A stretch of 64,000 bases of DNA from Clavibacter michiganensis subsp. tessellarius. Lineage in GTDB: Bacteria > Actinomycetota > Actinomycetes > Actinomycetales > Microbacteriaceae. Below, piece after piece: positions 1,195-40,080 of this stretch. The stretch is from assembly GCF_021922985.1 (NCBI RefSeq), contig NZ_CP040788.1:2294001-2358000 (forward strand). The letters are read 5' to 3'. The notes beneath the pieces are model-generated. The model ran no database searches, was not told the origin of the DNA, and saw only the letters and a list, made by a program, of their open reading frames with translations. How positions within the stretch are numbered: the first letter of the stretch is position 1; each line of letters opens with the position of its first letter. A program made the translations under genes and the position numbers.

Positions 1195-2505
1195 ATGACG
1201 ATCTTCGAGCAGATGGAGTCCGAGGTCCGGAGCTACAGCCGCGGCTGGCCGGTCGTGTTCGACCGCGCGGTGGGCAGCGAGATGTTCACGGCCGACGGCG
1301 ACCGCTACCTCGACTTCTTCGCGGGCGCCGGCGCGCTCAACTACGGGCACAACAACCCCGCGCTCAAGCAGAAGCTCGTCGACTACATCCTCCGTGACGG
1401 CGTCACGCACTCCCTCGACATGTTCACGGAGGCCCGCCGCGACTTCCTGCAGACCTTCCAGGACGTCATCCTGCAGCCCCGCGGGCTCGACTACCGCATC
1501 ATGTTCCCCGGCCCGGGCGGCGCCAACGCGGTCGAGGCAGCGATGAAGCTCGCGCGCAAGGTCACCGGCCGCACCACCATCGTGCACTTCACGAACTCGT
1601 TCCACGGCATGACCGAGGGCGCGCTCTCGGTCACGGGCAACGCGCTCAAGCGCGGCGGCGCCGGCCACCCCCTGCACCACGCGGTCGCGGTGCCGTTCGA
1701 CGGCTACCTCGGCGCCGAGACCGACACCCTCGCGTACTTCGAGAAGCTGCTCGACGACTCGGGGTCGGGCGTCGACACGCCCGCCGGCGTCATCGTCGAG
1801 ACCGTGCAGGGCGAGGGCGGCATCAACGTCGCCACGCCCGAGTGGCTGCGCAAGCTGCGCGAGCTGACCGCGCGCCACGGCATCGTGCTCATCGTCGACG
1901 ACGTGCAGATGGGCTGCGGCCGCACGGGCGGGTTCTTCAGCTTCGAGGAGTCCGGCATCGTCCCCGACATCGTCACGCTCTCCAAGTCCATCGGCGGCTA
2001 CGGCCTGCCCATGGCCCTCACGCTCCTCAAGCCCGAGCTCGACCAGTGGAAGCCGGGCGAGCACAACGGCACGTTCCGCGGCATCGCGCCCGCGTTCCTC
2101 ACGGGCGCCGAGGCCCTGCGCCTGTACTGGGCCGACGGCGAGCTCGAGGCGTCCACGCTCCGCAAGGGCGAGCGGATCCACGAGGTCTTCACCGAGATCG
2201 CCGCCTCCGCCGCGCCGGGGATGACGCTCAAGGTGCGCGGCCGCGGCCTCGCGCGCGGCATCGAGTTCCCCTCGGGCGAGCTCGCCGGCGCGGTCTGCCG
2301 GGCGGCGTTCGAGCGCGGCATGCTCATGGAGACGAGCGGCGCCGGCGGCACGGTCATGAAGGTGCTGCCCGCGCTCACCATCACCGACGAGCAGGTCGAG
2401 GAGGGTCTCGCGATCATCCGCGCGTCCGTCCGCGAGGTCCTCGGATCCACGAGCGAGGAGCTCGCCGCCGACGAGGTGCCGCTGCCGGTGGCCGTCGGGA
2501 GCTGA
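1195..2505 (+). CDS. ectB: diaminobutyrate--2-oxoglutarate aminotransferase (EctB-type, class III PLP)
   Basis: A 436-residue class III aminotransferase of the EctB family, which converts aspartate-semialdehyde plus glutamate into L-2,4-diaminobutyrate. Visible are the FHGMT segment (about 137), the cofactor-binding VDDVQMGCGRTG (Asp235/236) and the PLP lysine Lys264 in LSKSIGGYG. The start has AAGGAG 9 nt upstream; the frame is open far upstream but that part is not protein-like. EctA (acetyltransferase) and EctC (ectoine synthase) are not adjacent, so ectoine synthesis is not indicated. Clavibacter-type peptidoglycan contains diaminobutyrate, so supply of cell-wall precursor is the likeliest role (inference). 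A siderophore or other diamine role remains possible. Confidence 0.88.
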   Translation: MTIFEQMESEVRSYSRGWPVVFDRAVGSEMFTADGDRYLDFFAGAGALNYGHNNPALKQKLVDYILRDGVTHSLDMFTEARRDFLQTFQDVILQPRGLDYRIMFPGPGGANAVEAAMKLARKVTGRTTIVHFTNSFHGMTEGALSVTGNALKRGGAGHPLHHAVAVPFDGYLGAETDTLAYFEKLLDDSGSGVDTPAGVIVETVQGEGGINVATPEWLRKLRELTARHGIVLIVDDVQMGCGRTGGFFSFEESGIVPDIVTLSKSIGGYGLPMALTLLKPELDQWKPGEHNGTFRGIAPAFLTGAEALRLYWADGELEASTLRKGERIHEVFTEIAASAAPGMTLKVRGRGLARGIEFPSGELAGAVCRAAFERGMLMETSGAGGTVMKVLPALTITDEQVEEGLAIIRASVREVLGSTSEELAADEVPLPVAVGS

Positions 2506-2547
2506 TCCGCTCTCCGTCCCGACCCTCGCTGTCACTTCGACGGCTGC

Positions 2548-2572
2548 TAGTGTCACTTGTGCGCCACAAGTG
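2548..2572 (+). promoter_or_regulatory. putative promoter and operator of the Fic gene
   Basis: A -10-like TAGTGT (2548-2553) is followed directly by a perfect inverted repeat, CACTTGTG-CGC-CACAAGTG (2554-2572), placed where transcription would begin, about 36 nt before the Fic start. AGTGTCA is also repeated directly at 2549 and 2570. The position suggests a repressor site. Which protein binds is unknown; the winged-helix tail of the Fic protein itself is one candidate. Confidence 0.5.
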
Positions 2573-2607
2573 TCAACGTGCTGCGTCGTAGCGACAGGAG
2601 CGAGCCG

Positions 2608-3801
2608 ATGTCCGAGTGGCCTCAGCACGAGCACCGCACGGTCCCCTGGCAGAGCACGGGCCGACATGGCCCTCGAGAGGACCGGGTCTTCTCGGAGGTC
2701 GTCGTCTCGCTCCCGCCCCGACTCGGCGACGTCACCGTCCCCTCGACGCCTCCCCGCGACCTGTTGCGCGCGCGGTACGAGACGGAGGAGCTCGAGCGGA
2801 TCGCCGGTGATCTCCTGCAGCCGCTGGCGGGCTTCCTCATCCGCATGGAATCCGTCGCGTCATCGCGCATCGAGCAGGTCGAGGCGAGCACCACCGCCTT
2901 CGCCCGTGCCCTCGGCGGCGTGAAGGAGAATCCGTCGGCGATGTCGATGGTGTCCGCCGGCCGTGCCATCACCGCGCTGATCGACGCATCCACGACGTCG
3001 ATCGAGCTCGACGCGATCCTGCGGGCGCATGAGCTGCTGATGCGGGACGAGCCCGGGGAGCGCGAGCATGCCGGTCGCCTCCGTGACGTGCAGAACTGGA
3101 TCGGCGGATCGCAGTACACCCCCCGCGGGGCGCTCTACGTGCCTCCCCCATCGGAGGAGGTACCGGCCTGCCTCGCCGACCTGCTGGCGTTCGCGAACCG
3201 GGACGACGTGGATCCGATCGCCCAGGCCGCGATCGTGCACGCGCAGTTCGAGAGCATCCACCCGTTCACCGACGGGAACGGCCGGATCGGCCGCGCCCTC
3301 ATCGGCGCGGTCCTCCGTCGGCGGGGCATGACGCCGACCACGGTGCTGCCGGTCGCGTCAGCGCTGGCCGCCGACACCGACCACTACTTCGGCCTCCTCA
3401 CCGCCTATCGGTCCGGCGACGTCGAGGCGATCATCACCGATGTGGCGCTGTGCGTCGAGGTCGCCGCACGCGAGGCCCGCGGGACGGCCCGGTCGTTCAT
3501 CTTGTACGCCGACGCGTGGCGGCGCGAGGTCGGGATGCGCGCCGGCAGCGCGACGGATCAGGTGCTCGACCTGCTGGTCGGCCTGCCGGTGTTCACTGCC
3601 GAGCAGCTGTCCACGCGCGCCGGCCTCCGGGACCGGGCGGCGTACCGGGCGATCGACCAGCTCGAGGAGGCCCGGATCATCACCGAGGTCACCGAGCGCA
3701 AGCGCGATCGCGTCTACGCCGTCACGGACGTGCTGGACGAGTTCGAGGATCTCGACGACCGCATCCGGTCCCGCATCACCCGACTCCGTACGGCTGGGTG
3801 A
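2608..3801 (+). CDS. Fic-domain AMP/nucleotidyl transferase with C-terminal winged helix
   Basis: A 397-residue Fic family protein. The N-terminal region carries SSRIEQ (85-90), matching the class II inhibitory helix pattern [S/T]xxxE[G/N] except that Gln replaces the last residue. The Fic core has the full active-site motif HPFTDGNGRIGR (218-229), so AMP transfer to a hydroxyl on a target protein is expected. About residues 300-390 form a winged helix-turn-helix, suggesting DNA binding. The start is ATG 2608 with CAGGAG upstream. No antitoxin-like small gene is adjacent, so the inhibitory helix appears to be internal. Cytoplasmic; the target is unknown. Confidence 0.88.
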   Translation: MSEWPQHEHRTVPWQSTGRHGPREDRVFSEVVVSLPPRLGDVTVPSTPPRDLLRARYETEELERIAGDLLQPLAGFLIRMESVASSRIEQVEASTTAFARALGGVKENPSAMSMVSAGRAITALIDASTTSIELDAILRAHELLMRDEPGEREHAGRLRDVQNWIGGSQYTPRGALYVPPPSEEVPACLADLLAFANRDDVDPIAQAAIVHAQFESIHPFTDGNGRIGRALIGAVLRRRGMTPTTVLPVASALAADTDHYFGLLTAYRSGDVEAIITDVALCVEVAAREARGTARSFILYADAWRREVGMRAGSATDQVLDLLVGLPVFTAEQLSTRAGLRDRAAYRAIDQLEEARIITEVTERKRDRVYAVTDVLDEFEDLDDRIRSRITRLRTAG

Positions 3802-3832
3802 CCCTGGCTCGATCCCGCCGTCCATCGCGCGC

Positions 3833-4495
3833 CTACCGCGGCCGCAGGATCCGGTACCGGTGCTCCGGGCGACCGGTGGATCCGTAGTTGAGCTGCACGT
3901 TGACCACGCGGTCGCGGGCGAGGGCGCCGAGGTAGCGCTGCGCGGTGGCGCGGGAGACGCCCACGCGCTCGGCGATCTCGGGGGCGCTCAGCTCCGCATC
4001 CGACGCGGAGAGGGCATCGAGCACGGCCTGCTCGGTCGCCGGGCGCTCGCGCGCGGAGACCCGGCCGGGCCGCAGGGCGTGGATGGCGCGGTCGATGCCG
4101 GCCTGGTCGAGCGGCCGGTCGCTCGCGAGGCCGGCGCGGAAGGCGGCGTAGGCCGCGAGGCGCGCGGTGAGCAGCTCGGGCGCGAACGGCTTCACGAGGT
4201 AGGAGACGGCGCCGCCGCGGAGGGCGCGGCGGACGGTGGCGGGGTCGTCGGCGGCCGTGACGAGGATCACGTCGGGCTCGATGCGCCGCACCAGGTCGAT
4301 GCCGCTGCCGTCGGGCAGGTAGGCGTCGAGGAGCACGAGGTCGGGGCGGGACGTGTCGAGCACGGCGAGCGCCGCCCGCACGCTGCCCGCGGTGCCGACG
4401 GCGCGGAAGCCCGGCGCCTGCTCGACGATGCCCTCGTGCAGGCGGGCGATGCGGAAGTCGTCGTCGACGACGAGGACGGTGAGGTCGTCGGTCAT
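3833..4495 (-). CDS. response regulator, CitB/DcuR type
   Basis: A 220-residue response regulator. The receiver domain (about 5-120) shows the acidic pair Asp11/Asp12, phospho-acceptor Asp57 in VLLDAYLPDG and the conserved Lys in YLVKPFAP. The C-terminal part has a helix-turn-helix (SAPEIAERVGVSRATAQRYL) typical of the CitB/DcuR/DpiA group rather than the OmpR or NarL types. Its ATG overlaps the stop of the sensor kinase gene (ATGA), so the two are translationally coupled. With the divergent CitMHS transporter the likely job is to switch on citrate uptake when the kinase senses the ligand (inference from family and context). Confidence 0.88.
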   Translation of the reverse strand: MTDDLTVLVVDDDFRIARLHEGIVEQAPGFRAVGTAGSVRAALAVLDTSRPDLVLLDAYLPDGSGIDLVRRIEPDVILVTAADDPATVRRALRGGAVSYLVKPFAPELLTARLAAYAAFRAGLASDRPLDQAGIDRAIHALRPGRVSARERPATEQAVLDALSASDAELSAPEIAERVGVSRATAQRYLGALARDRVVNVQLNYGSTGRPEHRYRILRPR

Positions 4496-6393
4496 GCGCG
4501 GGCTCCGTCGGGGTCGGGGGCGGGATCGGGATCGTCGGGGTGATGTGCGCCGACGGCGGGCGGATCGTCGGCCCGCGGATCCGCGGCGGCCGGCGGATCC
4601 GCGTCGGGCGGCTCCACCACGCCCGCGAGCCGCGCGCAGAAGACGGCGCCGGCCTCAGCACGAGGCGGCGGGCCGCCGGGATCGGCGACCCACACGTCGC
4701 CGCCGTCGCGTCGGGCGATGTCGCGCACGAGCGGCAGGCCGAAGCCGAGGCCGTGCGCGGGATCCGCTCCGCCCGCCGCCGCGAGCCCCTCCGCGGCGCC
4801 GTCCACGTCGTCGGGTCGACGCCGGAAGATGCCCGCGGCGTCCGCCGACCCGAGCCCGTCGCCGGAGTCGGAGACCGCGAGGTGCAGGTCGACCCCGTCG
4901 TCGAGCGCCTCCACCTCCACCCACCTGTCGGCGCGGGATCCGCGGACGGCCGCGTGCATCGCGTTGTCGACGAGGTTGCCGAGCACGGTCGTGACCTCCT
5001 CGGGCCGCACGAGGATCCCGCGCACGAGCGTGCCGGGCCCGACCCGGAGCGCCACGCCCCGCTCCTCCGCCTCCATCGCCTTCGCGCCGAGGAACGCCTG
5101 CAGGTAGGGCTCGTCGACGAGCCCGGCGTCGACCGTCGGGAACGCCACCGGCCCCTGCTCGAGCACGCCCGCGAGGTAGCCGTCGGCCTCGTCCACCCGG
5201 CCGGTCGCGACGAGGCCGCGCACGACGTGCAGGCGGTTCGCGAACTCGTGCCGCTGCACGCGGAGCGCCGTGGACATCGCGGTGACGGCGGTGAGGCGAC
5301 GGCTCATCGCCTCGATGTCCGTCTCGTCGCGCAGCACCATCACGGTGCCGAGGTCGCGTCCGTCGCGGTCGACCCGGGCGACGTCGACGAAGAGGAGCCG
5401 GTCGTCGACCACCGCGCGCAGCGACGCGGATCCGGCGGCCGGCGCCCCGGGCGGCGCGGACGCGGCTCCCGCGCCCGCCCGCGCCGCGGCGACCGCGTCC
5501 CGCAGCACGGGCGCGACGCCGAGGTCCGCGAGCGTGCGGCCGACCGGATCCACGAGCCCGAGCAGCTCCGCGGCCCGCGGGTTGCAGACGGTGACGCGGC
5601 CGTCGGTGCCGAGGCCGAGCACGCCCTCGCCGACGCCGGACAGGACGGCCGCCTGGTCCTGCACGAGTCCCGCGAGCTCGGACGGCTGGAGGCCGAGGGT
5701 GAGGCGCGCGAGCCGTCGCGAGAGGATGCCGCTGGCCGCCGCCCCGACGCCGAGCGCGAGCAGTGCCACGACCGCGATCGCGGCCACGTCGACGCCGATG
5801 GAGTCGCGCACGGTGGCGGCCGCGAAGCCCACGCTGACCTCGCCGACCACGCGGCCGGATCCGCTGCCCGTCGAGCCCGCGCCGCCCGCGGACCCGTCCG
5901 CGTCCGCCAGCGCCCGAACCGGCACCTTCGCCCGCGCCGACTCCCCGAGCGTGCCGGTGGCCCACGTGACCTCCTCGCGCCCCGCGAGCGCGACGGCCGG
6001 ATCCGTGCTCACGAGCTGCCCGAGCTCGGCGGCGTCGGGGTGGGCGAGCCGAAGCCCGCGGTCGTCGGTCACGACGACGAAGAGCGCGCCGGTCCGCTCG
6101 CGCACGGCCTCGGCGGTCCGCTGGACGGGCCCGTCGGCGAGGTCCGCGGCGGAGGCGGGCGCGGGATCCGCGGTCTCGTCGGTCACGGCGGCCCGGAGCG
6201 CGGGATCCTCCGCGGCCGTCCGCGCGATCGCGAGCGCCGTCGCCTGCGCCTCGTCCCGGTTCTCCGACGAGCTGAGCAGGCCGTAGGCGATCGTCGCGAT
6301 CCCCACCACCACGAGCACGACGAGCAGCTGGAGGACGAGCGTGCGGCGCGCGAAGTCGAGCCCCGCCCGTCGCCGCCCCGTCGCTCGATCCAC
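4492..6393 (-). CDS. sensor histidine kinase, CitA/DcuS type
   Basis: A membrane sensor kinase of about 633 residues. Order: a transmembrane helix near the N-terminus (LQLLVVLVVVGIATIAYGLL), an extracytoplasmic sensor of about 140 residues, a second helix (VAAIAVVALLALGVGAAASG), a cytoplasmic PAS region, a dimerisation helix with phospho-acceptor His in RHEFANRLH, and an HATPase domain with N- and G-boxes (LGNLVDNAMHAA, GLGFGLPLVRDIA). GTG 6393 is preferred because TATGCT lies exactly 6 nt before it; an earlier in-frame GTG at 6450 is possible. Its C-terminal tail is rich in Pro/Asp/Ala. It pairs with the regulator at 3833-4495 and probably senses citrate or a related carboxylate. Confidence 0.87.
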   Translation of the reverse strand: MDRATGRRRAGLDFARRTLVLQLLVVLVVVGIATIAYGLLSSSENRDEAQATALAIARTAAEDPALRAAVTDETADPAPASAADLADGPVQRTAEAVRERTGALFVVVTDDRGLRLAHPDAAELGQLVSTDPAVALAGREEVTWATGTLGESARAKVPVRALADADGSAGGAGSTGSGSGRVVGEVSVGFAAATVRDSIGVDVAAIAVVALLALGVGAAASGILSRRLARLTLGLQPSELAGLVQDQAAVLSGVGEGVLGLGTDGRVTVCNPRAAELLGLVDPVGRTLADLGVAPVLRDAVAAARAGAGAASAPPGAPAAGSASLRAVVDDRLLFVDVARVDRDGRDLGTVMVLRDETDIEAMSRRLTAVTAMSTALRVQRHEFANRLHVVRGLVATGRVDEADGYLAGVLEQGPVAFPTVDAGLVDEPYLQAFLGAKAMEAEERGVALRVGPGTLVRGILVRPEEVTTVLGNLVDNAMHAAVRGSRADRWVEVEALDDGVDLHLAVSDSGDGLGSADAAGIFRRRPDDVDGAAEGLAAAGGADPAHGLGFGLPLVRDIARRDGGDVWVADPGGPPPRAEAGAVFCARLAGVVEPPDADPPAAADPRADDPPAVGAHHPDDPDPAPDPDGARA

Positions 6394-27796: not shown

Positions 27797-27867
27797 GCGA
27801 GTGTAGTTCAATGGTAGAACTTCAGCTTCCCAAGCTGATAGCGCGGGTTCGATTCCCGTCACTCGCT
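27797..27867 (+). tRNA. tRNA-Gly (anticodon CCC)
   Basis: The 7-bp acceptor stem GCGAGTG / CACTCGC, D-loop TAGTTCAATGGTA, anticodon stem TCAGC / GCTGA with loop TTCCCAA (anticodon CCC), and T-arm CGGGTTCGATTCCCG fold completely. The discriminator is T, as in glycine tRNAs, and CCA is encoded at 27868-27870. Low-GC foreign DNA starts right behind its 3' end, a common integration site. Confidence 0.96.
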
Positions 27868-27923
27868 CCACATCTAATACTGGGCCACCAAGAGGCGGTC
27901 GCCGATCTACACCATCAAAGTCC

Positions 27924-30206
27924 TCATGCGCCGTGTACCAAATCTAGTACGCGCTGTCCATAAGTCGCGATCTCCTGCGCATTTGCAGGAGCCGTAGATG
28001 CATCAGGGTTGGTGTCGTGATGAAATTGGCTAGCAAAATCATTTAACTCACGTAGCTCGACTACATCACTTTTTGCATGCACGAGCACGCTTGGGGTCTG
28101 AGCTATGTCTATTTGATGAATGACACCACCGAGTGTGCCCCCATGTACCAAGGCACCGGGATATCGACGATGCAGAAACCCCTCGACAACGGGCCTTAAA
28201 GCCGTCGCGGCCGAACGAGGGTCAGTGCTGCGCCCAGCAACAAAATCGTTGACCGATCGGTAATTTGTATAATATTCCGACTCGCACTCGCGTTCCAGAT
28301 CTACGGGCGCAAATTCCGAATAGTCATCCGCTACTCGCTGAATTTGGACAGACTTCATTGCCCGATTCCGTATATCACTCTCGAGAGCCCGCTGTAAGTC
28401 GCGAAGGAACTCAGCATCATGCGCCAAAACAATTAGCTGATTACAAGCCGCGGCAATTTTAACAAGAATATTGATTGTATATTGGCGACGACTACGATCG
28501 AGGCTACTCATAGGATCGTCGACTACAACAATATTGTCCGCAATGCCCGGATCGGCCAGCATGGAGCTAACGAAGAAGGCGAAGGCCATTGTGCGCTTGT
28601 CTCCCTCACTCAGCGCAGTCGCAAATGAAGGCAATCCACCGGCCGCCTTGATAGCTTCACCCCGCAAGGTGATTCCGTAGTCCGTGCGAGCTTTGCCGCC
28701 GAGGTAGTTTGTCTTAAACTCATCAATTGCAAACGCTGCACCCAGCCGCCCAAGGTGGCCGTTTATTGCGACACGATAGCTTGCGAGGGTCGTCGCCATC
28801 AGCTGACTGAGAGTCGCTCGTGCATCTTTTCGCTCACGCTCAGCTTCTGTCAGATTAACTTCCGCTTGAGCCAAGCTCGTAAAAAGCGTCTTGATGTCCT
28901 GAGAGTGGCGCAGCTTTGCCCTCTCCATCTGCGACAGCTCCTCCCGGACTCTAGTGACATCCTCTTTGCCGAGCGTCTCCAAGTAAGTGGTGATGGATGC
29001 CACATGGGCAATAGTCATTTCGTTCATGTCTGAAACAACCTTGAGTACCTGGCTCCAAAGACGATTCGCTTCCTCTTTATCTCCTTGCGTACCAACGCGA
29101 TCGGAAGGAGCGAGGGCCTTCCTGCTTAGCAAGCTGAGAATCAGTTCGCGCAAATTTTCCAGGGAAGTCGATGCAAGCTCATCTAGGTCAGCGCCCACCC
29201 TTGAAAGCTGAACCAGGGGCGACCAGAGATCTATCCGTTCATTTACTAAAATTCTGTGTCGCTGAATATTCTCGAGCGTTGTTGGTGCAGTTATGTCAAC
29301 AAAGCTGGTGGTCTTACGATCAATTTCTGCACGGAGCGCTTTAAAGGCTTGATTGAAGTGGCTTTTGTACATCGCTATGAGCGACACATGCTCCGTCGAC
29401 TGGCCGCAAAAAGGGCAAAATTCATCTGCTGGATATGCCTGACCACGCGCAATCCAGTCGATGGCGCTGGTATCGTCAAGCCTCTCCACGTGCGCAGCCA
29501 CAGCGGTCTCCGCCTCCGCGTGGACTTCATCCAGAGTGGTAAATAGTGTCTCAAAAACGCCATCAATATCAACCTTGGGCTCAGTCAGGGCGGCCGGTAA
29601 GGGCTGACTTCTAATGACCTCCAGACGACTAGCTTCGTCCAAGCGCTTCTGCAACATCTTGGCTTTTACATCAAAGTCCTGAACTTCCGGAAGTGCCCGA
29701 AATACAGCTAAAGGCATTGGCGTGGAGCGCGCCTGAAGTTCTGTGCTCAGTTCTCGAATAGCTGCCGTTGCTTCCTGCTGCTTTTTTGCTGCATCAGCTT
29801 CGACTTCGCGTGCCGCCACCGCGGAGTCACCAAGAGCGAAGTCTAGGAGGTTTTTTCTGTGCTCCGCGGTGATCTCAGTGCCCGAATGTATATTTCGCGT
29901 TACGAAGGTCGAGTCGTAAACTTTAACTTCCGGGCGCCTTTGCGACCAAACTCCTTGCACATACTCGACTCGCAAGTTCGAACCAAATTGAAGCGACACG
30001 GCCGGCTGCACAGAGGCGTCAATAGTCACCCGCTCCTCTATATCCACTGCAATACCAGAAGATACCGAGCGAAGTATGCTGGCGAGCGTGGACTTACCCC
30101 GCCCGTTCTCTGCATAGACAAGCGAACATTGCGCAAACTTGTGCGCCCCAGCTCTTGACCGGTGGAATAATCCTACGCCGTCGATGCTATGGATTCGCTC
30201 TAGCAT
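27924..30206 (-). CDS. zinc-hook AAA ATPase of the PrrC/RloC (AAA_13) type
   Basis: A 760-residue SMC-like ATPase. Walker A is NGRGKST (34-40), the ABC signature LSEGDKRTMAF starts at 532, Walker B is VVVDDPMSSLD (560-570) and the H-loop LAHD is at 594-597. The intervening 380 residues are coiled coil broken by CPFCGQ (Cys264, Cys267), a zinc-hook-like motif. Behind the ATPase a roughly 130-residue C-terminal domain holds Arg671-x3-Glu675 and His729/His730, reminiscent of the Arg/Glu/His set of the PrrC anticodon nuclease, though spacing differs. ATG 30206 has GGAGGT upstream. Low GC suggests recent transfer. Likely phage-defence related; nuclease activity is inference. No restriction genes are adjacent. 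Confidence 0.8.
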   Translation of the reverse strand: MLERIHSIDGVGLFHRSRAGAHKFAQCSLVYAENGRGKSTLASILRSVSSGIAVDIEERVTIDASVQPAVSLQFGSNLRVEYVQGVWSQRRPEVKVYDSTFVTRNIHSGTEITAEHRKNLLDFALGDSAVAAREVEADAAKKQQEATAAIRELSTELQARSTPMPLAVFRALPEVQDFDVKAKMLQKRLDEASRLEVIRSQPLPAALTEPKVDIDGVFETLFTTLDEVHAEAETAVAAHVERLDDTSAIDWIARGQAYPADEFCPFCGQSTEHVSLIAMYKSHFNQAFKALRAEIDRKTTSFVDITAPTTLENIQRHRILVNERIDLWSPLVQLSRVGADLDELASTSLENLRELILSLLSRKALAPSDRVGTQGDKEEANRLWSQVLKVVSDMNEMTIAHVASITTYLETLGKEDVTRVREELSQMERAKLRHSQDIKTLFTSLAQAEVNLTEAERERKDARATLSQLMATTLASYRVAINGHLGRLGAAFAIDEFKTNYLGGKARTDYGITLRGEAIKAAGGLPSFATALSEGDKRTMAFAFFVSSMLADPGIADNIVVVDDPMSSLDRSRRQYTINILVKIAAACNQLIVLAHDAEFLRDLQRALESDIRNRAMKSVQIQRVADDYSEFAPVDLERECESEYYTNYRSVNDFVAGRSTDPRSAATALRPVVEGFLHRRYPGALVHGGTLGGVIHQIDIAQTPSVLVHAKSDVVELRELNDFASQFHHDTNPDASTAPANAQEIATYGQRVLDLVHGA

Positions 30207-37484: not shown

Positions 37485-37527
37485 GCGACGCCATAAAGCA
37501 CGGCAAGCAATTGCGCCATTAGGGGTC

Positions 37528-37549
37528 CACATGGGAGCATGCCCATGTG
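37528..37549. promoter_or_regulatory. inverted repeat upstream of the island gene
   Basis: CACATGGG-AGCATG-CCCATGTG is a perfect 8-bp inverted repeat, 44 nt ahead of the island gene. TTGACA at 37557-37562 could be a -35, but I find no convincing -10. It may be an operator, or a terminator for the SDR gene. Confidence 0.4.
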
Positions 37550-37593
37550 TCGCCACTTGACAGAACGGCAAATAGCGAAAAGCCGGTGCAATA

Positions 37594-38973
37594 ATGGAGA
37601 TTTATGTTTGGAATGGGAACGAGCTCATCCCAGCTGCGCGCGACCGCGACAGCCCATATGTGACAGAAATCGTCAACAAAGATTGGCGACCGAAAATAGG
37701 GGCATTGTTGGTCGGCCTAGTAGACGATGACACCGATGATGAAGGATCGGTAATTCAAGCGCTCGGTATAGTGCGGACTGTTAGCCGTGTCGCCTCCGAG
37801 CGTCGTCGACTGAAGATCGAACCGCTACTTTTTGTCGACTCGCTCATGTGGAGCGAATTTCTTGACTCGCTTACTCGCGGGGAAATGTCGCGTGCGCCGA
37901 CGTCAATGCCAGATGAGCTGCGCCCGCTAAAGCTGGCTCCCACCGTGGCCGCGGCTCTGCTCACGTATCTGAGGCAACAAAGCGAGATAGCGACATGGCT
38001 AGATGAGCTCCAGCCCCAAGCCGACCTCAGCGACGAGGAGAGGCTGATTTTTAGTGAAACCCGTGATGCAGTAAGCTTGGCCATAGACATAGCTGCAGTA
38101 GCAGGAGTCGAGACCTCACCGCTTAATAATAGCCCGCGCGGCGTCGATGCCCAAGACTTACTCGCCTCTATTTTAAAGACGGCTCACCTGGCAGACTCGG
38201 AAGAGGATCTCATTCCGCTCGATTTAACTCGCCTAGACAAAGATACAGAGGCAGTCCGGGTTTCGGGACATGTGGGGCAACTAAAGGGAATCGATTATAA
38301 TCTCGTAGTATTTAATGTTAATAAGAAGCCTCTTGAGGTCGCCCTCGGTGTAGATTTAGTGTATTGGGATGTAGAAAATAACGTTTTCACTCTCGTGCAG
38401 TATAAAAGGCTTGATCCGGAAATAGGTGAGGCGGGCATAAAAGATTGGCTCTACAAGGGTAAATCTGAAATCGAGCGCCAGCTAGAACTCATGGTTGAAC
38501 CCATCGAAGATATGACCAAGTCCGTCAATTGGCGCATTGGCTCGCCGTATTGGTTCAAGTTTGTGCGAAAAGATGCCGCAATCTTCAATGAGATGAAGTT
38601 ACTTAAGGGCATGTATGTTCCCGCCGACTACTTGCGGCTTGCATTGAAGGACGGCACCTTCGAAACCGGACCGAATGGCGGATTTCGTATCGGGTACCAA
38701 AACTGCCGAAGAGTCACAAGGGCCACTTTTGTTGATTTGGTACAAAGAGGCTTAATAGGCACACGAGAAACTCAATCAGCTGACATGCGCAAAATCATTG
38801 GTGACCTTACGGCAGGTGGCAGGAGCGCCATAGTAGCGATGAAAACAAGGTGGATTGCAAGCGCTGACGACGAAACCCTTGACATTGACGATCTCTTCGC
38901 GACCGACCCTTCAGCGAGTGAGAATTCATTCGTCTATGGCGTCGACGACCTACTGGATGGTATACAAGACTGA
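37594..38973 (+). CDS. unrecognised protein with PD-(D/E)XK-like nuclease signature
   Basis: A 459-residue soluble protein. Residues 1-240 are mixed alpha/beta with no motif I can name. Residues 246-272 read as a restriction-endonuclease-like core: Glu248, then Asp254 in a hydrophobic strand (LGVDLVYW), then Gln269-Tyr-Lys271 closing the next strand (FTLVQYKR), matching the E...D...(E/Q)xK order of PD-(D/E)XK nucleases such as Mrr. A helical C-terminal part with DMRKIIGDLTAGGRSA follows. Codon use is AT-rich and unlike all neighbours. Sole gene of its island, it is a candidate defence nuclease. The assignment rests on pattern only. Confidence 0.6.
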   Translation: MEIYVWNGNELIPAARDRDSPYVTEIVNKDWRPKIGALLVGLVDDDTDDEGSVIQALGIVRTVSRVASERRRLKIEPLLFVDSLMWSEFLDSLTRGEMSRAPTSMPDELRPLKLAPTVAAALLTYLRQQSEIATWLDELQPQADLSDEERLIFSETRDAVSLAIDIAAVAGVETSPLNNSPRGVDAQDLLASILKTAHLADSEEDLIPLDLTRLDKDTEAVRVSGHVGQLKGIDYNLVVFNVNKKPLEVALGVDLVYWDVENNVFTLVQYKRLDPEIGEAGIKDWLYKGKSEIERQLELMVEPIEDMTKSVNWRIGSPYWFKFVRKDAAIFNEMKLLKGMYVPADYLRLALKDGTFETGPNGGFRIGYQNCRRVTRATFVDLVQRGLIGTRETQSADMRKIIGDLTAGGRSAIVAMKTRWIASADDETLDIDDLFATDPSASENSFVYGVDDLLDGIQD

Positions 38974-39043
38974 CGCTGGGGGTCCTAAGCGAGGCCCCTG
39001 ACCATAGGATGCTCTGCGTAAGTCATTTCTTACCCATATTTAC

Positions 39044-39061
39044 CTAGGCTTTACCGCCTAG
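39044..39061. terminator. hairpin at the island's right edge
   Basis: CTAGGC-TTTACC-GCCTAG is a perfect 6-bp stem between the convergent island gene and the LacI gene. It may terminate either or mark the junction of foreign and resident DNA. Confidence 0.45.
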
Positions 39062-39066
39062 TACAT

Positions 39067-40080
39067 TCAGCTGCTCTGCCGCACCACGAGGGTCGTCGGC
39101 ACGAGCGTCAGCGGATCCACGGCCTCGCCCGCCACCAGCCGCAGCAGCACCTCGGCCATCGCCCGCCCGAACTCCTGGTTGGGCTGGCGCACGGTGGTCA
39201 GCGGCGGCACGGCGGACTCCGCGAGGTAGTCGTCGTCGAAGCCCACGACGCCCACGTCCTCGGGCACGCGCAGGCCGCGCTCGCGCAGCGCCGTGTAGAC
39301 GCCGGCCGCCATCCGGTCGCTCGCGGCGAACACCCCGTCGATCGGCTCGCCGCGCACGAGCAGGGCGCGCATCGCGTCGGCGCCGGATGCGGGCGAGAAG
39401 TCGCCGACCTCGACGAGCGTCGGATCCAGGCCCGCCGCCGTCATCGCCTCCCGGAAGCCGCGCAGCCGGTCGATGCCCGCGGGCATGTCCTGCCGCCCGG
39501 CGACCGTGGCGATCCGCGTGCGGCCGCGCGCGATCAGGTGCTCGGTCGCGACGCGCGCGGCCCCCACGTTGTCGACGTCGACGGTGGGCGCGTCTCGGTC
39601 GTCCTCGCGCAACGGCCGCCCGGCGAACACCACGGGCAGCCGGTCGCGCAGGCCGCTGAAGGTCGCGTCCCCGGAATGGTGCGAGACGACGAGCACCCCG
39701 TCGACGTTGCCGCCGAGCAGGAAGCGCCGCGTCTTCTCCGCCTGCGCCGGCGACGAGATGAGGAGCGTGAGCGTGTGCTCGGTGGCGGCGAGGTGGGCCA
39801 TGGCGCCCTGGATGAGCGACGCGAAGAACGGATCCGCGAACACGCGCGCCGTCTGCTCCGGCATCAGGAGCGCGAGGGCGTTGGTGCGGCGCCCGGCGAG
39901 GGAGCGCGCCGCGCGGTTGGGCACGTAGTCGAGCTGCGCGATGGCCGCCTCGACTGCTGCGACGGCCCCGGGCGCGACCTTGCCGGATCCGTTCACCACC
40001 CGCGACACGGTGGCCCGGCTGACCCCGGCGAGCGCGCCGACCATCTCGAGCGTGGGCTGCTGCTCGGCGTCGGCGACCAC
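39067..40080 (-). CDS. LacI family transcriptional regulator
   Basis: A 337-residue LacI-type repressor. The helix-turn-helix and hinge are complete (TLEMVGALAGVSRATVSRVV, then LDYVPNRAARSLAGRRT at about 50-66), followed by a periplasmic-binding-protein-like sensor domain (ALLMPEQTARVFADPFFASLI to VGVVGFDDDYLAESAVPPLTT). GTG 40080 has GAGGGGGA upstream. It is divergent from a Gfo/Idh/MocA dehydrogenase, a plausible target, and no sugar transporter is adjacent. The inducer is presumably a sugar or polyol. Confidence 0.9.
   Translation of the reverse strand: MVADAEQQPTLEMVGALAGVSRATVSRVVNGSGKVAPGAVAAVEAAIAQLDYVPNRAARSLAGRRTNALALLMPEQTARVFADPFFASLIQGAMAHLAATEHTLTLLISSPAQAEKTRRFLLGGNVDGVLVVSHHSGDATFSGLRDRLPVVFAGRPLREDDRDAPTVDVDNVGAARVATEHLIARGRTRIATVAGRQDMPAGIDRLRGFREAMTAAGLDPTLVEVGDFSPASGADAMRALLVRGEPIDGVFAASDRMAAGVYTALRERGLRVPEDVGVVGFDDDYLAESAVPPLTTVRQPNQEFGRAMAEVLLRLVAGEAVDPLTLVPTTLVVRQSS

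Follow-up and report, generated by a model that had tools for sequence, protein, structure and literature searches.

The window, that is, the whole stretch of 64,000 nucleotides analysed here, carries a gene for a 459-residue protein that we explain, with somewhat better than even confidence, as a defence module that acts alone, was gained by horizontal transfer and belongs to an undescribed family: a probable Mrr-like nuclease with an N-terminal part that would set its trigger or target. A defence role for the family, taken by itself, appears likely. More tentatively, and just short of even confidence, the family may be a widespread group of one-protein immune nucleases that join a new N-terminal sensor to a Mrr-like five-residue centre without a modification partner; its spread would cover Actinomycetota, Pseudomonadota, Patescibacteria MAGs, conjugative elements, plasmids and, rarely, viral contigs. 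If true, this adds a compact single-gene defence family beyond Pfam, NCBIfam and PADLOC 2023, with five clear residues for mutation and the question of what the N-terminal part recognises. The novelty lies in the N-terminal half, the catalytic signature and the job of the family being of already familiar kinds. A family model could enter defence-annotation tools at once.

The window gene is supported as a horizontally acquired single-gene cassette. By blastn of the junctions against relatives, the inserted segment spans 1,579 bp (about 1.58 kb), and its limits fall within 6 bp of the single-gene island (37494..39061) drawn in a preliminary description of this DNA. In the closest relative, 2 bp stand in place of the window's 37488-39066, the flanking short-chain dehydrogenase (SDR) gene being 97% and the lacI-type gene 94% identical to those of the window. 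The family gene was absent from all 17 other genomes of the genus. The SDR and lacI-type genes are directly adjacent in 7 of these 17, while in the remaining 10 the SDR or the lacI-type gene had no strong match. The window genome (3.37 Mb) has a single copy of the gene. The GC content is 51.1% for the insert and 50.9% for the ORF, compared with 72.3% for the window, and "GC near 33% in places" was a fair account of minima of 35% (100-bp stretch) and 26% (50-bp stretch) within the insert. A second gene was not found in 37488-39066, nor were a target duplication or terminal repeats seen at the insert ends, and promoter-like and terminator-like sites at the insert were not above chance. The hairpins announced for both sides are present and modest, with a fold z of -2.4 for the one in the upstream leader and about -1.4 for the one at the right end. 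GGATCC is absent from the insert, as also announced, against 3.4 occurrences expected at window density, which alone is weak evidence. The coordinates of all these features are collected below.

Features of the inserted segment, its neighbours and the encoded protein (positions in the window)
Feature	Position	Strand	Remark
Short-chain dehydrogenase gene (SDR), left neighbour	ATG 36738, end 37484		named by eye
Inserted segment	37488..39066	.	51% GC, between SDR and lacI-type genes
Upstream hairpin CACATGGG / CCCATGTG	37528..37549	.	insert leader, 8-bp stem
459-aa protein, unnamed family, putative stand-alone nuclease	37594..38973	+	ATG start agrees with the P0004 start
N-terminal part, residues about 1-190	37594..38163	+	less conserved; putative sensor/recognition part
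E203-E204-D205, candidate motif I	38200..38208	+	predicted helix; E203 in 149/150
Putative catalytic core E248 - G252-V-D254 - Q269-Y-K271	38335..38406	+	alignment conservation
Conserved R314 ... K322	38533..38559	+	predicted strand around WFKFV
Small hairpin CTAGGC / GCCTAG	39044..39061	.	6-bp stem near the right end of the insert
LacI-type regulator, right neighbour	39067-40080	-	named by eye

The protein had been described as unrecognised, and the profile searches agree. The window protein matched no Pfam, NCBIfam or PADLOC family (5,027 models for PADLOC) at E values up to 10. For 63 family members, only chance-level matches to Pfam (best E 0.029) and no match to PADLOC (E up to 1) were obtained, and 10 distant members matched no nuclease family in Pfam. 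A PDB sequence search with two family alignments, A1 and A2, gave nothing beyond weak matches to the region that precedes the core, with best E values of 0.89 for A1 and 0.092 for A2. The family is absent from Pfam, NCBIfam and PADLOC 2023. None of the 144 fetched family proteins is named for a function, none has a Pfam domain among its precomputed annotations, and the accession numbers of six members found no mention in the literature searched.

A first search collected 69 proteins, whose named sources are mostly Actinomycetota; searches with alignments of distant members returned 89 and 50 proteins, overlapping, and brought the set to 144, one of which (P0001) is identical to the window protein. 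The fetched set probably falls short of the whole family, since each search scored only the roughly 8,000 candidates with the most words in common. Identical sequences aside, the seven nearest homologues (P0002-P0008, 459-473 aa) give alignments that cover 98-100% of the window protein, in line with the 459-residue product proposed earlier, and the best named full-length relative, from a Kocuria rosea plasmid, is 52% identical. The family proteins come from Actinomycetota, Pseudomonadota and Patescibacteria, with one source given as a Patescibacteria MAG and another as a Deltaproteobacteria MAG. Their distribution is sparse: in the family sample 9 of 398 genomes had the gene, in the class sample 10 of 394, with the window's own genome counted in both, and it was present in 9, 9 and 10 of 72,556 plasmid records with three queries. 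No match was found among 50,697 phage records with two queries. Two loci on viral contigs were matched by divergent queries, none with the window protein as query. Two long products, the 821-aa P0089 and the 915-aa product of locus L089, were considered as fusions and set aside, as they look by eye like upstream read-through of a GC-rich open frame.

We aligned 152 sequences with MAFFT (the 144 fetched proteins, the window protein and 7 locus translations; the set was not made non-redundant), some of them 15-20% identical. G252, D254, Y257, Q269, Y270, K271 and K322 are each present in 151 of 151 sequences, R314 in 150 of 151, E248 in 150 of 151 (one D) and E203 in 149 of the 150 sequences with a letter at this position (one K). 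The core proposed in the preliminary description, Glu248/Asp254/Gln269/Lys271, is thus invariant or nearly so throughout the family, although it had missed the near-invariant E203. The usual helix-strand-strand spacing needs more room than the six residues by which E248 precedes D254, so that E203, which falls in a predicted helix, is the better candidate for motif I. A crude Chou-Fasman average over alignment A1 gives the predicted order helix(E203)-strand-strand(D254)-strand(QxK)-helix-strand. The residues of a PD-(D/E)XK site, acids followed by (D/E/Q)xK, are present in the right order (E203, E248, D254, Q269, K271), and D254 and Q269 are 15 positions apart, compared with 16 in the Mrr_cat sequence of locus L113. 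The middle part of the protein (residues about 200-325) is probably a PD-(D/E)xK-type nuclease with a Mrr-like active site. We think the nuclease reading fairly probable, resting as it does on the residues, their order and the crude strand reading, with the fold itself putative. The N-terminal part (residues about 1-190) matched no family, as had been said of the N-terminal half; it is nevertheless shared by the family, more loosely than the core.

Among known systems, Mrr is close in layout: in Mrr_cat (PF04471), G-[VI]-D is followed after about 15 residues by hhQxK(R), as in the family (GVD-x14-QYK(R), against GVD-x15-QAKRY in L113). We take E248 (six residues before D254), R314, K322 and G389 of the family to lie outside the Mrr signature. 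Unlike Mrr_cat sequences, the family has no PF04471 match, with hhalign probabilities of 0.18-0.36% against 12 Mrr_cat sequences, and unlike Mrr the window protein matches no winged-helix family. Shedu SduA (PF14082) is a single-gene defence protein with a C-terminal PD-(D/E)xK-type nuclease. Its SduA_C sequences show ExK whereas the family has QxK, and neither a sequence nor a profile match links SduA_C (PF14082) to the family. Against the Mrr_cat and SduA_C alignments together, hhalign gave no match (probabilities 0.09-0.36%), with small targets of 12 of 13 Mrr_cat and 10 of 11 SduA_C sequences, those of L115 and L142 being dropped as mislocated regions. According to PMC12707154, Mrr and MspJI have a PD-QxK site; the family resembles Mrr as presented there in this site and in a one-chain build whose N-terminal part is separate. 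In a machine-learning study, DefensePredictor, known defence domains occur in 31 newly validated E. coli systems, 13 of which are reported to have PD-(D/E)XK domains (PMC13092281). These are validated anti-phage E. coli proteins in which a known nuclease core is surrounded by new domains, which makes a nuclease-defence reading of the present family ordinary in kind. Clavibacter has been the subject of a DefenseFinder survey (PMC11856565).

Family members occur in several mobile contexts: conjugative elements (loci L002-L006, L012, L016 and L083), plasmids and two viral contigs. Relaxase-, ParB- and ArdC-like genes, noted by eye, marked the conjugative elements as such. Two genes for small membrane proteins enclose the family gene, which is alone and oppositely oriented there, in Mycetocola, Leucobacter, Gulosibacter, Actinomyces and others, and in L016 extra genes share the same interval. 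A search with one small membrane-protein gene against 100 family genomes recovered 12 pairs whose gap is empty, measuring 77-164 bp, and nine whose gap measures 294-5,347 bp. One of these nine (G072 C12, Mycetocola) holds the family gene. The other eight were inspected for cargo, together with G094, where the second gene was not found. One gap contains an AbiEii-type gene, according to annotated relatives, another a CoiA-family protein and a third a conserved hypothetical protein, which we assume to resemble AbiJ-type proteins; by eye, the other six sites have methyltransferase-like and hydrolase-like genes, a transposase accompanied by ordinary genes, or no clear content. This conjugative-element site takes varied cargo, part of it defence-type; the AbiEii-type and CoiA-family proteins occupy the same gap as the family gene in related elements but are unrelated to it. 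The variable gap corresponds to L005:9535-11571 and its relatives (L177-L185); the two small membrane-protein genes that border it are paralogous and belong to a conjugative element of actinobacteria. The Microthrixaceae MAG locus L012 was not counted as another phylum, as it carries the same element as L002 of Mycetocola and is probably misbinned. Of the two IMG/VR viral contigs, one has the member between scaffold-like and capsid-like genes (L145:7158-8537), and on the other (L146, about 2100-5189) the member is followed by a P-loop ATPase-like gene, with P2-like tail genes near, all by eye.

We then surveyed the neighbourhoods of 16 of the 27 chromosomal loci, leaving out seven more copies of one and the same conjugative element (L002, L003, L004, L006, L012, L016 and L083), the duplicate island L082, the 3.7-kb contig L014 and the fragments L091 and L092. 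From our own gene calls, we took at most five genes per side with products of 80 aa or more (140 proteins, L086:450-7487 being dropped for size); as controls, 139 proteins came from 20 regions in 13 genomes, for the most part the genomes of the loci themselves (a random 140 of 159, with one long one dropped). At E<=1e-10, 250 PADLOC models were matched with the 139 neighbour proteins and 33 with the 139 control proteins, these being counts of models, not genes, inflated by the many models per family, and the bulk matches are not traceable to loci. Scanned singly against PADLOC, 28 neighbours chosen by eye placed a defence neighbour in 8 of the 16 chromosomal loci. L010 has a CBASS operon with a cyclase, E1-E2 and a JAB-TIR-SAVED effector, followed by the family gene; L085 has NsnABC, and L086 was counted by homology to L085 and from two members per Nsn model in the bulk scan. 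The others are L007 (PDC-S28 and PDC-M68B/ABC-3C), L008 (type II MTase), L015 (PDC-S65), L084 (DruE-like, a partial match at 4e-85, and GajB-like helicases) and, weakly, L081 (a PbeA-like helicase only, 1e-15). Known-system genes are also near the family gene in 5 of 7 distinct plasmid loci: PDC-S46 in L037 (3.5 kb off), IetA/IetS in L038, GajA in L039 and L040, and PDC-M01A/B in L043 (L041 and L044 are the same plasmid region). The clustering of homologues with defence genes that the preliminary description had put forward for checking is often observed, on both chromosomes and plasmids. A defence neighbour was not identified in L005, L009, L011, L013 and L087-L090, whose genes were in the bulk scan only, with 25 of its 250 matched models listed; at these and at the plasmid loci without such a neighbour, conjugation genes, ordinary genes or nothing informative were seen.

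No partner gene recurred across many independent loci in an all-against-all blastp of 239 neighbours from 26 loci. Loci related to each other gave matches (the element copies, L081/L082, L085/L086, the helicases of L084/L086 and the Gabija genes of L039/L040); in addition, L009 and L015 share a relaxase-like gene, and there are scattered single matches, for instance of integrases and of a small gene 33% identical in L086 and L089. The family was also considered as a missing CBASS effector and rejected, as the L010 operon has its own JAB-TIR-SAVED effector. Several neighbourhoods merit mention in their own right. L081 and L082, from two genera, share a near-identical island (92-99% at the amino acid level) of an HTH-like gene, a DEAD/ResIII helicase, two small genes, the divergent member and a serine-recombinase-like gene. 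In L084:10471-19061, a gene pair for a 2,144-aa DruE-like protein and a 719-aa UvrD/GajB-like helicase lies beside the member, with a large related gene near the members of L085 and L086 too. On the Paracoccus plasmid pAMI8 (L038:7611-10603), directly after IetA/IetS, a distant member shares a 4-bp overlap with a DUF6119 gene (PF19614, E=1.6e-151), possibly a lineage-specific partner.

For the family protein we infer a fold, a nuclease activity, an anti-phage effect, a trigger and a target along the following lines. The N-terminal part (about 190 residues) would decide when or what the protein cuts, and cutting would be performed by a putative active site made of E203 and/or E248, D254 and Q269-x-K271. 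The target might be DNA foreign to the host, such as modified or structurally odd phage or plasmid DNA, in a type IV-like manner; alternatively, the nuclease may be held inactive and cut nucleic acid after infection has been sensed. By eye, no methyltransferase was seen in the window gene lists covering 25-46.7 kb, and with none noticed beside the gene, attack on non-host DNA or cutting released by infection is most likely. Of these modes, type-IV-like restriction is slightly favoured over abortive infection. The latter, in which the N-terminal part releases an inactive nuclease on infection and the cell is killed, seems rather unlikely as the specific mode; it is a sub-case of the defence module preferred here, so that the two estimates are not exclusive. 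It would fit a single gene without a methylase, and broken copies (three pieces in G362, fragments in G670 and G506) are as expected of costly genes. However, decay is common in other accessory genes too, an antitoxin-like partner is not recurrent, and the sequence gives no separation from direct restriction.

Other readings depart further from a defence nuclease. The protein might serve defence or a mobile element without being a nuclease, its conserved acids, Q and K taking part in another chemistry, e.g. the turnover of nucleotides or small molecules. We judge this unlikely: despite the absence of a profile match to the nuclease families searched, GVD-x14-QYK is spaced and ordered much as in the Mrr type, which the predicted succession of strands resembles as well, and the residues persist in very distant members. 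The gene might also be plain cargo with a metabolic or other role, found near defence genes only through shared mobile elements. The eight loci without an identified defence neighbour agree with this, but close defence neighbours recur in different phyla and a metabolic neighbour is not recurrent, making such a role quite improbable. Finally, a selfish intergenic nuclease, like a homing endonuclease, would spread by cutting empty sites and then being copied in. Such behaviour would suit a gene that stands alone between conserved genes, as this one does in the window, in conjugative elements and within a cluster of phage structural genes (L145). Yet recurrent insertion at one conserved site, a trait of homing endonucleases, was not observed, independent loci having unrelated flanks, same-element copies aside. 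The conjugative-element site also accommodates unrelated cargo, defence genes are enriched among the neighbours and the phage records gave no match, so that we regard a selfish nuclease as very improbable.

Two further observations concern the window itself. GGATCC occurs 137 times in positions 1-64000, against about 21 from base composition (about six-fold). No defence gene was seen close to the insert; the nearest one found, 7 kb away, belongs to a second low-GC stretch (27797-30206) and encodes a 760-aa AAA_13 / PDC-S06-type (PrrC-like) protein (27924-30206, minus strand, GC 52%; PADLOC PDC-S06 match at E=3e-61), adjoined by a tRNA-Gly(CCC) at 27797-27870.
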